DNA from: Streptomyces sp. NBC_00239
Lineage (GTDB): Bacteria; Actinomycetota; Actinomycetes; Streptomycetales; Streptomycetaceae
Length of the DNA stretch: 64,000 nucleotides
Direction of reading: 5' to 3'
Assembly (NCBI RefSeq): GCF_036194065.1
Contig: NZ_CP108095.1
Span: 5,580,001-5,644,000, forward strand
The notes below the pieces were generated by a model. It was not told where the DNA came from. It saw nothing but the letters and a program-made list of their open reading frames with translations, and did no database searches. Numbering within the stretch: the stretch's first letter is position 1; each line of letters opens with the position of its first letter. Below, in pieces: positions 55,570-62,025 of the stretch. Position numbers and translations under genes: made by a program.

Positions 55570-56529
55570 TCACCCCGAGTGACCGCCCGTACCCCTTTCA
55601 GGGGTGTGTCCCGGCCCACTTCCGCCCCCAGAATCGAAGGAAACCGGCGCATCGAACGCCGCTTTCCTAGTCGCCCGCCGCAGTGCCCGCAGCACCGTCC
55701 CGCCCAACAGCATCGTCAGGACGACCGTGAGCACGGCCCGGCCCAGGTCCCAGCCCATCGAGGTCGCCAGGCAGTACGCGAGGAAGCGGACCAGGTTCTC
55801 GTGGAGCGGATCGCTGGCCTGGAAGGACACCCCGCTGCCCAGCCCCGCGATCAGCGGCCAGCCTTGCAGGTTCATGACCGTGCCGTACGCGAACGCCGCC
55901 GCGAAGCCGTACGCCGACAGCATCACCAGCTCGGCCCGGCCCCGGATCCGCTCCGGCCCCGGCAGCAGGCCCGCGCCCAGCGCGAACCAGCCCATCGACA
56001 GCATCTGGAACGGCATCCACGGTCCGACCCCGCCCGTGAGCAGCGCGGACGCGAACATCGTGACCGCGCCGAGTACGAAACCGAAGCCGGGCCCCAGCAC
56101 CCGGCCGCTGAGCACCATCAGGAAGAACATGGGCTCCAGGCCGGCGGTGCCCGCGCCCAGCGGGCGCAGCGCCGCCCCCACGGCGGCCAGCACCCCCAGC
56201 ATGGCGACGGCCTTCGCGTCCATGCCGCTGTCCGCGATGGTCGCCACCACGACGGCCACCAGTAGCGGGAGCAGCGCGGCGAACAGCCAGGGGGCGTCCT
56301 TCGAGTGCGCGAGCCCGGACTGGCCGTCGGCGAGCAGCGGCCAGCCGAAGGCGGCGATGCCGATGAAGGTGACGAGGGCCAGGGCGGCGGCGGCGCGGGG
56401 GCCGATGCGGATGGGGCGAGTGCGAGTGCGAGTGCGGGTGCGTGTGCGTGTGCGGGCAGGGGTGCGGGCGCTGGCAGGGGTGCGGGTGCCCGGCCGGTCG
56501 TGGGTGCCGGATCGGCTTCGGGTGGTCAC
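55570..56529 (-). CDS. ECF transporter S component
   Basis: A 319-residue substrate-binding membrane subunit with about six helices (ALALVTFIGIAAFGWPLL, FMVLSG.../GFVLGAVTMFASALL, GVGPWMPFQMLSMGWFALG) and a C-terminal helical pair. The N-terminal 45 residues are disordered and contain a Thr-Arg run (TRTRTRTRTRTR, residues 28-39). It lacks the CbiM-type HxP motif at the start, so a nickel/cobalt importer is unlikely. GTG 56529 overlaps the ATPase stop (GTGA). The substrate is inferred from the riboswitch to be cobalamin or a precursor. Confidence 0.85.
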   Translation of the reverse strand: MTTRSRSGTHDRPGTRTPASARTPARTRTRTRTRTRTRPIRIGPRAAAALALVTFIGIAAFGWPLLADGQSGLAHSKDAPWLFAALLPLLVAVVVATIADSGMDAKAVAMLGVLAAVGAALRPLGAGTAGLEPMFFLMVLSGRVLGPGFGFVLGAVTMFASALLTGGVGPWMPFQMLSMGWFALGAGLLPGPERIRGRAELVMLSAYGFAAAFAYGTVMNLQGWPLIAGLGSGVSFQASDPLHENLVRFLAYCLATSMGWDLGRAVLTVVLTMLLGGTVLRALRRATRKAAFDAPVSFDSGGGSGPGHTPERGTGGHSG

Positions 56530-58289
56530 GGGGTCTCTCCGAGGGCTGCGGCGACCTGCGCGACCGTGAGCCAGTGGCCGGGCGCGAGGATCTTGGCGAC
56601 CTGCGGGGCGAAGGCCGGGGAGGACACCACCACCTCGGCCGTGGGGCCGTCCGCGACGATCTCGCCGCCGGCGAGGATCACGACCCGGTGCGCCAGTTCG
56701 GCCGCGAGCTCCACGTCGTGCGTGGCCAGCACGATGGCGTGGCCCTCGGCGGCCAGGGCGCGCAGGATCTCGACGAGCCGGGCCTTGGCCGCGTAGTCCA
56801 GACCGCGGGTCGGCTCGTCCAGGAGCAGCAGGCCGGGGCGGCCGGTGAGGACCAGGGCCAGGGCGAGCGCGAGGCGCTGGCCCTCGGAGAGGTCGCGGGG
56901 GTGCGTGTCGTCGGGGACGTCCGGGAGCAGGGCGGAGACCAGGTCCCGGCAGGTGCCGGGGGTGGCGCCGGCGTCGGCGTCCGCCGCCGTGCACTCGGCG
57001 GCGACCGTGTCCGCGTAGAGGAGGTCGCGGGGTTCCTGCGGTACGAGGCCGACTCGGCGGACCATGTCCGCGGGCGGGGTGCGGTGGGGGGTCAGGCCGG
57101 TGACCCGCACCGAGCCGGTGGTGGGCTCCAGGGTGCCGACGAGGGTGTTGAGGAGGGTGGACTTGCCGGCGCCGTTTCGCCCCATGAGGGCGATGGTTTC
57201 GCCGGGCGCTACCGCCAGGTCTATGCCGCGGAGTACCTCTGTGCGGGCTCGGCGTACGCCGAGGTTTGTGGCCTTGGCCGGCGGCGCGGGTGCGGGGTGG
57301 GGTGTGGGCGGGGGCGTTTTGCGGAGGCGGGCGAGCAGGCGGCGGCGCGCCGGGGCTGCGGGGGCTCCGCCCCCGGACCCCCGCGCCTCGAACGCCGGCG
57401 AGGCTGGAATCGCCTCGAACGCCGGCGGGGCTGGAATCGCCTCAAGGGCCGGCGGGGCTGGATTGGAGGTGGTTGTGGCCAGGCGGGCTCGTAGGGGCGG
57501 GGATTGGCGGCGGGCGTCTCGGATGGTGAGGGGGAGGGGGGTCCAGTCGGCGAGGCGGCCCAGGGAGACGATCGGGGGGTGGACGGGGGAGACGGCCATG
57601 ATGTCGGCGGGGGTGCCGAGGATCGGGGCGGTTCCGGGGGAGGGGAGCAGGAGGACCTGGTCCGCGTACTGGACGACGCGTTCGAGACGGTGTTCGGCCA
57701 TGAGGACGGTCGTGCCCAGGTCGTGGACCAGGCGCTGGAGGACCGCGAGGACCTCCTCGGCGGCGGCCGGGTCCAGCGCCGAGGTGGGCTCGTCCAGCAC
57801 CAGGACCCGCGGGTGCGGCGTCAGGACGGAACCGATCGCGACGCGCTGCTGCTGCCCCCCGGACAGGCTCGCGATCGACCGGTCGCGGAGTTCGCCGAGC
57901 CCCAGCAGGTCGAGGGTCTCCTCGACCCGGCGGCGCATCACCGCGGGGGCCAGCCCGAGCGACTCCATGCCGTACGCGAGCTCGTCCTCGACGGTGTCGG
58001 TCACGAAGTGGGCCAGTGGGTCCTGGCCCACCGTGCCGACCACGTCGGACAGCTCGCGCGGCATGTGGGTACGGGTGTCCCGGCCCGCGACCGTGACCCG
58101 GCCGGTCAGCGTGCCGCCCGTGAAGTGCGGGACCAGCCCCGATACCGCGCCCAGGAGGGTCGACTTGCCGACCCCGGACGGGCCGACGAGCAGCACCAGT
58201 TCGCCCTCGGGGAGCGTGAAGTCCGCGTCCCGCAGGCTGGGCGCGGCGGCGCCGTCGTACGTCACCGACACCTGCTCGAAGCGGATCAC
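56526..58289 (-). CDS. ECF transporter fused double ATPase
   Basis: A 587-residue protein with two ABC ATPases. The first has Walker A GPSGVGKST, Walker B RVLVLDEPTSALDP and signature LSGGQQQRV; the second has GRNGAGKST, LSEGQRLAL and LLLLDEPTRGLD. This is the fused EcfA-A' form. The ~75-residue linker (about residues 270-345) contains three 9-residue repeats PPAFEAIPA encoded by the 27-bp satellite. GTG 58289 overlaps the T-component stop (GTGA). Confidence 0.94.
   Translation of the reverse strand: MIRFEQVSVTYDGAAAPSLRDADFTLPEGELVLLVGPSGVGKSTLLGAVSGLVPHFTGGTLTGRVTVAGRDTRTHMPRELSDVVGTVGQDPLAHFVTDTVEDELAYGMESLGLAPAVMRRRVEETLDLLGLGELRDRSIASLSGGQQQRVAIGSVLTPHPRVLVLDEPTSALDPAAAEEVLAVLQRLVHDLGTTVLMAEHRLERVVQYADQVLLLPSPGTAPILGTPADIMAVSPVHPPIVSLGRLADWTPLPLTIRDARRQSPPLRARLATTTSNPAPPALEAIPAPPAFEAIPASPAFEARGSGGGAPAAPARRRLLARLRKTPPPTPHPAPAPPAKATNLGVRRARTEVLRGIDLAVAPGETIALMGRNGAGKSTLLNTLVGTLEPTTGSVRVTGLTPHRTPPADMVRRVGLVPQEPRDLLYADTVAAECTAADADAGATPGTCRDLVSALLPDVPDDTHPRDLSEGQRLALALALVLTGRPGLLLLDEPTRGLDYAAKARLVEILRALAAEGHAIVLATHDVELAAELAHRVVILAGGEIVADGPTAEVVVSSPAFAPQVAKILAPGHWLTVAQVAAALGETP
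57360..57463 (-). repeat. Satellite of the palindromic element inside the ATPase gene
   Basis: GGGGGCTCCGCCCCC at about 57360-57374, followed by three 27-bp units starting at 57384, 57411 and 57438. The unit is 9 codons, so the reading frame is preserved. Confidence 0.9.
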
Positions 58290-59842
58290 TTGCTCTCCTG
58301 CGGAGGTGTTGCGGACGGCGGTACGGGGGCCACGAAGGCGGGGAGCAGGCCGATCAGGACGGCCGCGGCCGGCCACAGCGGCAGCACCGGGGCGACCAGG
58401 GGGACCACGCCGGGGTGCAGGGCCTCGGGGTCGACGGACGCCGCCCGGATCAGCAGTGCGGCGACGGCCGCCCCCGACCCGGCCACCAGCCAGGACCGCG
58501 CGCCCCACCGGTCGGGGCGGTAGCGGGTACGGACACTGCGGCGCCCGCCGAGCCGGAGCCCGGCCAGCGCGCACACCAGCCCGCCCAGGAGCACCGGCAG
58601 GCCGTAGCGGGCGCCCTCGGCGGCGAGCAGGCCGTACGTACCGGCGCACATGCCGAGCAGGCCGCCGAGGGTGAGGACGTTGGTGGTGTGCCGGACCGCG
58701 GGCGGGACGTGGGCGGTGCGGCCGTAGCCGCGGGCGTCCATGGAGGCGGCCATGGCGACGGACCGTTCCAGCGCGCCTTCGAGTACGGGCAGGCCGATCT
58801 GGAGGATCGCCTTGATCCCGCCGGTGGGGCGGCCGCGCAGCCGGCGGGCGGTGCGGAGGCGGGCGATGTCCGCGACCATGTTCGGCGCGAAGGTCATCGC
58901 GACGACGACCGCGACCCCGGCCTCGTACAGGGCGGCCGGAAGGGACTTCAGCAGCCGGGCCGGGTTGGCGAGGGCGTTCGCGGCGCCGACGCAGATGAGC
59001 AGCGCGGCGAGCTTCGCGCCGTCGTAGAACGCGAACACGAGCTGCTCGGCGGTGACCGTCCCGCCCAGGCGGATGCCCTCGGCCCAGACGGGCAGCGGGA
59101 CCTCCGGCAGGGCGAGGAGGGTGTGCGAGCCGGGGATCGGCGAGCCGAGCGCCACGGAGAAGACGAGGCGCAGGGCGATGACGAACAGGCCGAGCCGGAC
59201 GAAGGCGCCGTACGAGCGGGCCCAGGGGGCGTCGGTCTTGCGGGCCGCGACGACGTAGCCGGCGACGCCGACGATCAGGCCGAGGAGGAGGGGGTTGGTG
59301 GTGCGGGAGGCGGCCGTGGCCAGGCCGAGCGCCCACAGCCACCACGCGCCGGCGTGCAGCGCGTTGCCCCGGGCGGCGACGGGCGCGGACCAGCCGGTCG
59401 CGGCTGCCGCTGCCGTTGCCGCTGCGTGCCGGCTGGTACGGGTGGCCCGGCGGGTCGGGGTGTGCGGGGTGTGCGGCGCGGGCCCGGTGGCGGCGGTCTC
59501 GTGCCCGGGTGCGGCCCGGCGGGGGCGCGCCCGGCCTCCGGCCGGTCCGGTGCACCCACCCGCACCACCCGTGCGGGAGGCGGGACGGGTGCGGGTGGCC
59601 CCCGCGGCGGCAGGCCGCCCACCGTCGGCGGCTGCGGGGCCGTGGTCGGTTCCCGCGGACCCGTGGTCGGTGGCCACAGGCTCGTGACCGGCGGTTGCGG
59701 GGCCGTTGCCGGTGGCGGCCGTGGGCTCGTCGGCTGCGGGTACAGGGCCGTGGCTGGTGGCTGCGGGGCCGGGGTCGGCCGGTGCAGGGACGTGGGTGGT
59801 GGCCGGGGATCGGTCCTCGGGTTTCGGGTCCTCGGGGGTCAT
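58286..59842 (-). CDS. ECF transporter T component (CbiQ/EcfT family)
   Basis: A 518-residue integral membrane scaffold. The last 350 residues carry the CbiQ pattern: LGLATAASRTTNPLLLGLIV, AFYDGAKLAALLICVGAAN, the coupling motif SMDARGYGRTAH (Ala-Arg-Gly), and LLLAAEGARYGL. The first ~160 residues are a disordered Ala/Pro/Gly/Thr region not usual in the family. ATG 59842 overlaps the upstream stop (ATGA). Confidence 0.92.
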   Translation of the reverse strand: MTPEDPKPEDRSPATTHVPAPADPGPAATSHGPVPAADEPTAATGNGPATAGHEPVATDHGSAGTDHGPAAADGGRPAAAGATRTRPASRTGGAGGCTGPAGGRARPRRAAPGHETAATGPAPHTPHTPTRRATRTSRHAAATAAAAATGWSAPVAARGNALHAGAWWLWALGLATAASRTTNPLLLGLIVGVAGYVVAARKTDAPWARSYGAFVRLGLFVIALRLVFSVALGSPIPGSHTLLALPEVPLPVWAEGIRLGGTVTAEQLVFAFYDGAKLAALLICVGAANALANPARLLKSLPAALYEAGVAVVVAMTFAPNMVADIARLRTARRLRGRPTGGIKAILQIGLPVLEGALERSVAMAASMDARGYGRTAHVPPAVRHTTNVLTLGGLLGMCAGTYGLLAAEGARYGLPVLLGGLVCALAGLRLGGRRSVRTRYRPDRWGARSWLVAGSGAAVAALLIRAASVDPEALHPGVVPLVAPVLPLWPAAAVLIGLLPAFVAPVPPSATPPQESK

Positions 59843-60522
59843 CGGTTGCGGCGGCGGGACTGGAGGACGGCGGCTGCGGCGAGGGCCAGGACGGCGGCGA
59901 TGCCGGCGAGCAGGCCGAGGGAGGGGCCGCCGCCGTCGTCGGACTCGGCGGTCGGAGCCGTTCCCGGGGCCGTGCCCGGAGACGTCCCCGGGGTCGAGGC
60001 CGGTTCGCGGGCCGCCACCTGGTCGCCGCAGCCCTGGCGGGGGTAGCCGGAGATGGCGCAGAGGAGGGCGGCGCTGTTGTAGCGGAGGGGCTTGGCGACC
60101 GAGGCCAGGGCCTCGGCGGCCGAGGCGGCAGGCGGAACCGACGCGCACGCGGTGCGCGGGGCGGCCGTCGGCGGGGTCTCGCCGGGCGGGGCGTCCGCCG
60201 CCTCGCCGAAGTCGATGACCAGGGCCACCCGCTTGCGGTCGTCCTCGGCCGGGGTGGCCGCGCAGATCTTCGCGAAGTCGGGGGCCGACCGCGGCTTCGA
60301 CGAATCGGCGGAGTCCTCGCTCACCGAGAAGCGGAAGCCGACCGTGTCGCCGTCGGCGGGCCGGACCAGGGACGGCCCCTGGGACGCGTACGTCCACCGC
60401 CCGCCGACGCCGTCCCAGAACGACCAGTACCGGTAGCCGGCGGCCAGCGCGGGGCCCGCCCCCAGCAGGGTGAGGAGGATCCCCACCGCCAGGGGCAGGA
60501 CCGCGAGGCGCCGGCGGATCAC
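59839..60522 (-). CDS. SCO2322-like membrane-anchored surface protein
   Basis: A 227-residue exported protein. Signal peptide: LAVLPLAVGILLTLLGAGPA. Residues 29-70 read YRYWSFWDGVGGRWTYASQG then LVRPADGDTVGFRFSVS, a beta-fold pattern like DUF4430, the beta domain of transcobalamin and intrinsic factor. Four cysteines and a Pro/Thr linker follow, then a C-terminal helix and RRRNR anchor. GTG 60522 overlaps the previous stop (GTGA). Confidence 0.85.
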   Translation of the reverse strand: MIRRRLAVLPLAVGILLTLLGAGPALAAGYRYWSFWDGVGGRWTYASQGPSLVRPADGDTVGFRFSVSEDSADSSKPRSAPDFAKICAATPAEDDRKRVALVIDFGEAADAPPGETPPTAAPRTACASVPPAASAAEALASVAKPLRYNSAALLCAISGYPRQGCGDQVAAREPASTPGTSPGTAPGTAPTAESDDGGGPSLGLLAGIAAVLALAAAAVLQSRRRNR

Positions 60523-61796
60523 GGCTGCTGCTTCTTCCGGCGGCCGCTCAGCAGGATGCCGATGCCGATGCCGGCCACCGCGCCCGCGCCGACGATCCAC
60601 ACGATGTTCTGGTTGCCGGAAGAGTCGTCCTTCTTCTCTTCCCGGGCGTCGTTCGCGTCGCCGGACGTGCCGGTCACCGGGGAGGCCTCCGGGCCCTGCG
60701 CGTTCAGCTGTGCCACCAGGTCGGTGCCGCCGAACGCCTTCGGGTCGGCGCCGGCCGCGTGCGCGGCCAGGATCAGCTGCGCGTACCCGGCGGGGCCGGC
60801 CGTCTTCGCCCACGCCCCGTGGTTCTTCTCCAGCCAGGCCAGCGGCTTCGCGGCGGCCGCCTTGTGGCCGCCGGCCGCGAGGGCGACGACCGCGTCCGCG
60901 GTGTTGCCGTAGTCGGGCTGGTCGGTGGCGCCCGGCATGGCGGACATCAGGTGGTCGCCGGTCTTCGCCATCGTCGTCGCCAGGTAGTCGGCCGCGCCCA
61001 TCGCGGACTGCGCCGCGTCCTGCGGGCCGCGCTTGCAGGCGACCGGCTTCGAGGCGATCGGCACGTCGGCCTTCGGAGCCTCGACGACCAGACCCTTGCC
61101 GAGCACGCCGAGCGCGGCGGCGGCCGTCGCGTCCGCGTTGGCGGGCAGCTTGCCCGCCTTGTCCGGCTGGTAGGCGAACGCGCCCATGTCGGCGGCGGTG
61201 GAGACGCCCTTCTGCTCGCAGGCCAGCTGCAGCACGGTCAGCGCGTCGTAGGAGGTCTTGCCGCCCTTCGACTTCACCGCGTCCGGCTTCTCGCCGGCGG
61301 CGGCCAGGGCGCCCGCGACGATGGCCGTCGAGTTCGCGTCGCTGGGCGCACCGGGGCCGGGGCTGTACGCCCAGCCGCCGTCCTCGTTCTGTACGGACTT
61401 CAGCCAGCCGACGGCCTTCTTGACGGTGGCCTCGCGGCCGCCGACCGCGGCCAGCGCCTGCACGGCGGCGGCCGTGGCGTTGGAGTCGGCCATCGTCTTG
61501 GCGTCGCAGGCCTTCGACGCGTCGGCGCGGAAGGCGGCGAACGAGCCGTCCGCGCACTGCTGGCCGGCCAGCCAGTCCACGGCCTGGCCGGCGGGCCTGA
61601 GACCGGCCGTGTGCTGGGCGAGGAACGCCAGGGACTGGCGCCACACGCCGTCGTACGTCGGGTCGTTCTTGCCGTAGAGGCCCGAGGGGATCACCGGGGC
61701 GGGAGAGGGCGAAGGCGCGGCGAACGCGGCGGGGGCGGCGACCACGCAGAGTACGGCGGAGGCGGCGAGCGCGGCTGCGCTGCGGCGGACGTTCAT
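60519..61796 (-). CDS. Surface alpha/alpha-barrel protein (prenyltransferase/intrinsic-factor fold)
   Basis: A 425-residue exported protein, first gene behind the cobalamin riboswitch. After a signal peptide (SAAALAASAVLCVVAAPAAF), repeated helical hairpins with QW-type ends are visible: WLAGQQCADGSFAAF, WLKSVQNEDGGWAYSP, and NADATAAAALGVLGKG. This is the alpha6/alpha6 toroid shared by squalene/prenyltransferase enzymes and cobalamin-binding transcobalamin/intrinsic factor; no enzyme active-site DxDD is seen. It ends with a membrane helix (VWIVGAGAVAGIGIGILLSG) and RRKKQQP. It likely captures cobalamin. Confidence 0.87.
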   Translation of the reverse strand: MNVRRSAAALAASAVLCVVAAPAAFAAPSPSPAPVIPSGLYGKNDPTYDGVWRQSLAFLAQHTAGLRPAGQAVDWLAGQQCADGSFAAFRADASKACDAKTMADSNATAAAVQALAAVGGREATVKKAVGWLKSVQNEDGGWAYSPGPGAPSDANSTAIVAGALAAAGEKPDAVKSKGGKTSYDALTVLQLACEQKGVSTAADMGAFAYQPDKAGKLPANADATAAAALGVLGKGLVVEAPKADVPIASKPVACKRGPQDAAQSAMGAADYLATTMAKTGDHLMSAMPGATDQPDYGNTADAVVALAAGGHKAAAAKPLAWLEKNHGAWAKTAGPAGYAQLILAAHAAGADPKAFGGTDLVAQLNAQGPEASPVTGTSGDANDAREEKKDDSSGNQNIVWIVGAGAVAGIGIGILLSGRRKKQQP

Positions 61797-61914
61797 GGCG
61801 GGCGGGTGCCTCTCCTGCTGGGGAGCGGAGCAGACACGGCACGCGGGGGTACCGGGCTCCGGCTCCGTATACCTCGACGGTGCCGGCCACCGGGGTCGGT
61901 GGCGCGAGCCGTGC

Positions 61915-62025
61915 ACGTCCGGTCGGGTGGTCCGGCTCGCCGCGGCTTGGCGGCTTACGGTTGCGGGTCAGCGCCGGGTTCTCACCGGTCTTCCCCCAAG
62001 CGGAGTGATAACGACCGCCCCACTC
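61915..62025 (-). ncRNA. Cobalamin (B12) riboswitch
   Basis: Reading leftwards, the core GGGAAGACCGGTGAGAACCC then GACCCGCAACCGTAAGC (around 61953-61996) matches the conserved cobalamin aptamer. The B12 box AGCCGGACCACCCGACC is at 61921-61937. GGTCG (62012-62016) pairs with the end of the box to close P1. It is about 120 nt upstream of the first gene of the ECF operon and should repress it when cobalamin is plentiful. Confidence 0.9.

Follow-up and report, generated by a model that had tools for sequence, protein, structure and literature searches.

A predicted circularly permuted transcobalamin-type surface protein encoded with a riboswitch-linked ECF importer in Streptomyces

Introduction

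Surface scavenging of vitamin B12 was predicted in 2007 for secreted soluble-ligand-binding beta-grasp (SLBB) proteins of the transcobalamin type, many of which are joined to a toroid in one chain and share an operon with CbiO/CbiQ genes, and the clade was called a Gram-positive innovation (PMC1796856; this paper and the three others are cited for the portions of their text that were available). Among importers of the energy-coupling factor (ECF) type, ECF-CbrT of Lactobacillus delbrueckii functions with its S component and ECF module alone (PMC5997447). The putative cobalamin transporter of the acI bacteria is an ECF module behind cobalamin riboswitches, and the same study reports having detected B12 synthesis in none of its acI strains (PMC5301498). 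Here we describe a five-gene operon, with its upstream riboswitch, at positions 55570 to 62025 of a 64,000-nucleotide window of Streptomyces sp. NBC_00239 (contig NZ_CP108095.1). The operon probably encodes an ECF-type importer of a corrinoid, with cobalamin the likeliest candidate, together with two surface proteins that capture the substrate as a split transcobalamin.

Like the SLBB proteins of PMC1796856, the beta-grasp proteins of this system are secreted or anchored, occur with or without a toroid, and are encoded in operons with a CbiO-like ATPase and a CbiQ-like protein. Unlike in them, the chain order of the domain is circularly permuted here, the toroid and the beta-grasp are separate anchored proteins, and an S component, fused ATPases and a riboswitch belong to the unit. 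The Pfam model DUF4430 gave no match to the canonical relatives of the domain in seven of the seven standalone proteins tested. The transcobalamin type is given in canonical order in PMC1949818, whose available text mentions circular permutation twice, both times for the E1/UFD domain. Mammalian intrinsic factor, haptocorrin and transcobalamin are single, unpermuted and soluble chains, whereas two membrane-anchored chains, one of them permuted, are predicted here from sequence. The combination of S, T and two ATPases with a proposed cobalamin-class substrate resembles ECF-CbrT, which, as described in the available text (PMC5997447), has no surface partners and uses a common ECF module in place of the dedicated module with fused ATPases seen here. 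The acI module (PMC5301498) is likewise comparable, since the acI-like loci L091, L097 and L104 hold a SCO2322-type gene, T, fused ATPases and S behind a riboswitch of the adenosylcobalamin class; unlike the window operon, they have neither a toroid nor a C-terminal anchor on the surface protein. The available text of that paper names the ECF module and the riboswitches of acI and does not name the surface beta-grasp protein. The surface lipoproteins BtuG, BtuH and DUF4465 of Bacteroides similarly capture B12 outside before a dedicated importer, but they are other families by name and belong to a Gram-negative outer membrane with TonB-dependent uptake.

Literature searches, with subscription papers and preprints outside their scope, returned nothing on SCO2322-SCO2325, PF28005, GPS-CTERM or a permuted transcobalamin domain, and the single match for SCO2321 concerned, in its available text, a transdermal delivery peptide. 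Within that scope, neither the permutation nor its connection with this importer was found in print; surface capture itself was predicted in 2007.

Organization of the operon

Five minus-strand genes run from 61796 down to 55570 behind the riboswitch, in the order SCO2321-family toroid protein, SCO2322-family protein, EcfT, fused EcfA-EcfA' and S component. The 4-nt overlap that an earlier sequence-only reading of this DNA had claimed for every junction is seen in the coordinates at all four. The operon with its upstream riboswitch is not a chance arrangement.

The SCO2321-family surface protein (60519-61796, 425 residues) has a signal peptide seen by eye, an alpha/alpha toroid and a C-terminal hydrophobic membrane anchor (60540-60608, residues about 397-419, by eye). 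It matches SCO2321_fam (NF053823) with 591.9 bits (cut-off 300) and SQHop_cyclase_C with 29.6 bits (cut-off 26.1). In the animal B12 carriers, the half that is not the beta-grasp domain belongs to this alpha/alpha toroid class. The SCO2322-family surface protein (59839-60522, 227 residues) scores 217.6 bits against SCO2322_fam (NF040672, cut-off 85) and combines a signal peptide (by eye), a putative permuted beta-grasp domain (60007-60441, residues 28-172, modelled with a predicted local distance difference test score (pLDDT) of 95.7) and a GPS-CTERM membrane anchor or sorting segment (59848-59928, residues 199-225; NF040681, 35.5 bits). The signal peptides and C-terminal anchors thus agree with the earlier description of two secreted, membrane-anchored surface proteins.

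The EcfT-type transmembrane subunit (58286-59842) has a long low-complexity N-terminal extension and carries MDARGYG, which we take to be the ARG motif. Its match to CbiQ is weak (18.1 bits, cut-off 25), and three of three orthologues tested lie above the cut-off (26.7-33.4). The fused EcfA-EcfA' ATPase (56526-58289) holds two ABC_tran stretches in one protein, with Walker A, signature and Walker B motifs recognized by eye. The S component (55570-56529) reaches 32.8 bits against ECF_trnsprt (cut-off 30.7), whereas none of its three tested orthologues attains the cut-off (best 29.3). The matches to CbiQ (in orthologues), ABC_tran and ECF_trnsprt together sustain the reading of an ECF importer with T, fused ATPases and S.

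Predicted circular permutation of the SCO2322 protein

The earlier designation of the second gene product as a SCO2322-like surface protein stood at the level of the family match and can now be refined. The protein appears to be a circularly permuted transcobalamin/intrinsic-factor beta-domain, and sequence comparison establishes the permutation of the chain. The curated SCO2322 model, searched in 396 genomes of the phylum, matched 54, with 13 above the cut-off. In four genomes below the cut-off, a single open frame gave two part-matches whose order is the reverse of that in the model (positions 61/70-141 first, 3/5-66 second); the proteins at these loci, and at others that were read, have the canonical domain order. 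A hidden Markov model (HMM) was built from 12 canonical-order proteins, with L116 omitted since its motif was missed by the cutting rule. In native order, the best single stretch of 38 SCO2322-type domains against this HMM has a median of 40.8 bits (L091, L097, L101 and L105 were omitted under the same rule). When the domains were doubled, one near-full-model run was obtained in 38 of 38 cases, with a median of 87.65 bits. The domain in the window rises from 40.9 to 87.7 bits over model positions 2-116 of 119, and shuffled or reversed controls stay at or below 3.0 bits. Profile-profile comparison of the SCO2322-type and canonical families extends likewise from 44 columns (score 101.6) in native order to 110 columns (score 193.3) after doubling. 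Three of the 38 permuted domains were omitted from the merge of the reordered alignment.

In the AlphaFold2 model of the SCO2322 domain, strands at residues 2-12, 15-18, 32-41, 70-77 and 96-102 are followed by a helix at 108-115 and then by 119-121 and 127-130. The model of the canonical protein P0318 (mean pLDDT 82.5, domain mostly >90) places strands at 66-72 and 80-86, a helix at 92-98, and then 103-106, 110-117, 136-143 and 166-173. The chain order is S1-S2-helix-S3-S4-S5 in the canonical protein and S4-S5 followed by S1-S2-helix-S3 in the window's protein, which we class as a permuted derivative of the transcobalamin-type SLBB domain and not as an ordinary example of it; the SCO2322 model is a single compact domain whose strand order is a cyclic shift of the canonical one. 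The folds closest to the P0318 model are those of the B12 carriers, which lead the next fold by about 3 Z units. Both families share the precomputed Pfam number PF28005.1. Tryptophan, arginine and cysteine positions are invariant, and a hydrophobic C-terminal stretch is present in 37 of 41 permuted proteins, a larger set than the 38 domains compared above; among these 41 it was not found in the acI-like L091, L097 and L104 nor, narrowly, in L099.

At L047 (3397-6279), a single protein combines a toroid, two tandem canonical beta-grasp domains and CW_binding_2 repeats, and it plausibly represents an intermediate type for circular permutation by duplication. The database names of six canonical-order beta-grasp proteins (P0253, P0267, P0277, P0278, P0299 and P0318) are 'flagellar hook-length control protein' and 'ABC transporter substrate-binding protein'; at least the first of these names looks wrong.

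The upstream cobalamin riboswitch

By its sequence and covariation, the element before the operon is a cobalamin switch, with its aptamer at 61906-62013 on the minus strand and the RF00174 core at 61929-61995. The aptamer had been called in the sequence-only reading, which proposed an RF00174 search as the check and the lack of a hit as refutation. The outcome of that search depends on its stringency. At Rfam gathering scores the whole window yields a tRNA as the sole match and no riboswitch, and with relaxed filters RF00174 matches 61995-61929 on the minus strand with 24.8 bits (E 2.5e-4 in 601 bases), below the gathering score of 31.5. To reject the riboswitch on the default-threshold miss would be wrong, as the related operons and the custom covariance model overturn it. 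Four of 11 same-genus orthologues in L031-L041 lie above the Rfam gathering score (L031, L035, L037 and L040; four of 12 sources), as do L045, L046, L049 and L050 (four of eight), the match in L050 being on the strand opposite its operon. Six of 13 further loci also do so with RF00174 or a member of its clan (CL00101), namely L091, L097 and L104 with RF01482, L094 and L096 with RF01689, and L100 with RF00174.

The covariance model R1, built from 16 upstream regions including that of the window, matches the window at 62013-61906 with 92.6 bits. An R1 element occurs in 68 of the 71 loci given, the 16 training loci counted in and two contigs, identical by length, entered twice (L087/L177 and L091/L125); no match was obtained among the 71 in L199, L101 and L105, the last two having no ECF genes in the stretch. 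The helices are supported by two-sided changes in 8 of 21 pairs (35 such cells against a shuffle mean of 10.9), and 94.6% of cells are paired, against at most 50.3% after the partner columns are slid. R1 has six matches at E <= 0.001 in the window's genome, that of the window and five others. The genes behind these five encode ribonucleotide reductase, which this switch controls in Streptomyces; a Peripla_BP_2-FecCD-ABC importer; CobN; CobD/CbiB followed by a CobQ/CobB-type protein; and CbtA, a probable cobalt transporter. Since these genes are related to B12 or cobalt, the five matches provide an independent check on the identity of the switch.

Downstream of the aptamer, a possible hairpin (61865-61880, minus strand, CCGTCGAGGTATACGG) may serve as a kissing loop; inspection by eye shows CCGTCGAGG again at several other loci, likewise downstream of the aptamer, and the hairpin pattern has two matches in the window against 0.09 expected. 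At the 14-kb locus L049, several cobalamin riboswitches, four of them at the gathering score, surround toroid, beta-grasp and ECF genes.

Association of the surface proteins with the importer

Of 394 genomes searched in the class, 162 gave a match to the SCO2322 model (135 above the cut-off) and 209 gave a match to the S family at E <= 1e-12. Both occur together in 158 genomes, S only in 51 and SCO2322 only in four (G402, G491, G500 and G633). In 12 of 13 sampled S-only genomes, a canonical-order beta-grasp gene stands directly before T together with an R1 riboswitch, and the contig of the thirteenth stops inside T. Because these genomes also carry the beta-grasp gene and the riboswitch, a transcobalamin-type beta-grasp, canonical or permuted, and the riboswitch look like near-constant partners of the importer. 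The toroid is optional, while the beta-grasp protein is nearly always with the importer; of the 29 permuted loci L083-L111, 13 yielded a SCO2321 toroid, as did two of 12 whole genomes searched. No fusion of a toroid and a permuted domain in one protein was noticed in the loci examined, without a dedicated search. The external capture step that had been proposed earlier is the likeliest role of the surface proteins, but its description as unusual in Gram-positives was too strong, because of the 2007 prediction (PMC1796856, in its available text) and the presence of the S family in 209 of the 394 genomes.

A second, paralogous operon lies at L050 (5437-11866, same-genus genome G171), with a canonical-order beta-grasp, its own riboswitch and a toroid after S, and a DUF4430 match stands just past it. 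The operons of L202, L204, L205, L211 and L214 hold a second match to the canonical beta-grasp, either overlapping the S frame or lying after it.

Proposed mechanism and substrate

At low cobalamin, the riboswitch would permit expression of the five genes, as expected from the behaviour of its class. SCO2322, a membrane-tethered permuted beta-grasp, and SCO2321, a membrane-tethered alpha/alpha toroid, would together form the split transcobalamin. The corrinoid would be held at the outer face by the beta-grasp domain, plus the toroid where one exists, and would then be passed from the surface domain to the S component, with EcfT and the fused ATPases driving uptake. Since many otherwise similar operons have no toroid, the beta-grasp may be the core partner and the toroid an enhancer. 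A more far-reaching version, which we hold to be about evenly balanced, is that SCO2321 and the permuted SCO2322 form a split intrinsic factor clamping the corrinoid for a dedicated S component, that the surface subunit is obligatory, and that the permutation arose through tandem duplication and trimming, re-siting the anchor relative to the binding face.

Three observations make a corrinoid, rather than cobalt, the likely substrate: the partner shares its fold with the B12 carriers, the switch is part of the B12 regulon, and acI bacteria have the unit. The earlier argument that an S component without CbiM traits favours cobalamin over cobalt stands in this corrinoid form; no match to the CbiM or CbiN families was found in Pfam or NCBIfam. 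The acI-like unit was found on CP015603-CP015605, which are the acI strains IMCC25003, IMCC26103 and IMCC19121 (PMC5301498). The methionine synthase B12 domain occurs in six of six acI-like genomes (one family), with a stop within the matched stretch in two. CobB/CobQ-type matches above 40 bits are absent from five of the six.

Several observations weigh against the proposed importer of a captured corrinoid. Among the acI-like genomes, G488 has one CobB/CobQ-type match (105.8 bits), and a full-length FecCD permease is present in four of six (in G471 the match is merely partial, at 29 bits, and G488 gave no match). The window's own genome encodes CobN, CobD/CbiB and CobQ/CobB-type proteins and the riboswitch-linked Peripla_BP_2-FecCD-ABC importer, so scavenging would meet no obvious need in this organism. 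No solved structure, CbrT included, matches the S family in sequence. Sequential aligners returned no match of the permuted SCO2322 model in the PDB, and the transcobalamin link therefore runs through the canonical relatives, among which P0318 was selected for modelling by length and not by gene context. In sequence, squalene-hopene cyclases and prenyltransferases (GGTase beta) are closer to the SCO2321 toroid than transcobalamin is. No SCO2321 toroid was found at 16 of the 29 permuted loci or in ten of the 12 whole genomes searched; a joint pocket is therefore not general. Linkage is also imperfect, as T, A and S adjoin the permuted gene in 24 of these 29 loci. In L102, L108 and L110, the riboswitch, toroid and permuted beta-grasp are present with the genome's S on another contig, so the two surface genes can form a separate unit. 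At L101 and L105, neither ECF genes nor a riboswitch were detected in the stretch, and the S family has no match in either genome; their SCO2322-type genes have diverged motifs, and an orphan use of the domain is possible. Finally, the S-only sample comprises 13 of 51 genomes picked by hand, nine of them from one family, with 38 outside it.

Some of these points would suit an importer of another corrinoid or precursor, such as cobinamide or other cobamides, serving salvage in actinomycetes that make B12. The B12 synthesis genes and second riboswitch-linked importer of the window's genome agree with this, the CobB/CobQ-type genes lying 2-5 kb from the SCO2322 gene in G520 and G631 fit salvage, and ECF-CbrT takes both cobalamin and cobinamide (PMC5997447). 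We nevertheless regard this alternative as unlikely, given the five acI-like genomes without strong CobB/CobQ-type matches and the named acI strains reported without B12 synthesis, in which the imported product should therefore be almost directly usable. That the operon imports cobalt or nickel and is regulated by the riboswitch as a cobalt importer is very improbable: the T subunit is of the CbiQ type and CbtA stands behind the same kind of switch in this genome, but the S protein matches neither CbiM nor CbiN, a transcobalamin-type beta-grasp partner is hard to explain for a free ion, and reported B12 auxotrophs keep both riboswitch and operon. An importer of the CbiMNQO type for cobalt was rejected on the missing CbiM match and the B12-carrier fold of the partner.

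The anchors on both surface proteins, together with the hydrophobic C-terminus of 37 of the 41 permuted proteins, might instead suggest that these proteins bind no substrate and act as envelope scaffolds, holding the importer in place in the cell wall. This is quite improbable in view of the fold match specific to B12 carriers (the 3 Z units mentioned above), the invariant tryptophan, arginine and cysteine positions, and the acI-like versions, which retain the domain without a C-terminal anchor. It is scarcely credible that the reversed halves are separate half-domains shuffled by fusion, with no circular permutation. The permuted model could not be superposed on the canonical one in this analysis, but the permuted order recurs in all 38 domains, 135 of the 394 class genomes exceed the cut-off of the native-order model, and the domain is compact, confidently modelled and cyclically shifted in strand order. 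Capture of a corrinoid by the beta-grasp protein, followed by uptake through the dedicated ECF importer, fits these observations better.

The proposed role offers a testable function for two protein families that are annotated throughout Streptomyces as 'SCO2321 family' and 'SCO2322 family'. It would also connect an importer that is widespread in bacteria with the fold by which animals absorb B12. A natural circular permutant of a B12-carrier domain would provide material for comparing binding mechanisms, and its acI version is a candidate surface partner for the predicted B12 importer of these abundant lake bacteria, reported without B12 synthesis. If the beta-grasp is truly obligatory, the system would be an exception to the ECF rule that S, T and A alone suffice.

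Repeats and low-complexity segments in the importer genes

The T and S proteins both have long low-complexity N-terminal extensions, rich in Pro, Ala and His and with RTRTRT repeats (window 59400-59842 and 56400-56529, by eye). The linker between the fused ATPase domains contains three in-frame tandem 27-nt units (57384-57464). Near-copies of the 27-nt core are scattered over the window, with 14 matches at up to three mismatches, two of which are linker units, against 0.01 expected; the units therefore seem to be an interspersed repeat captured as a protein linker.

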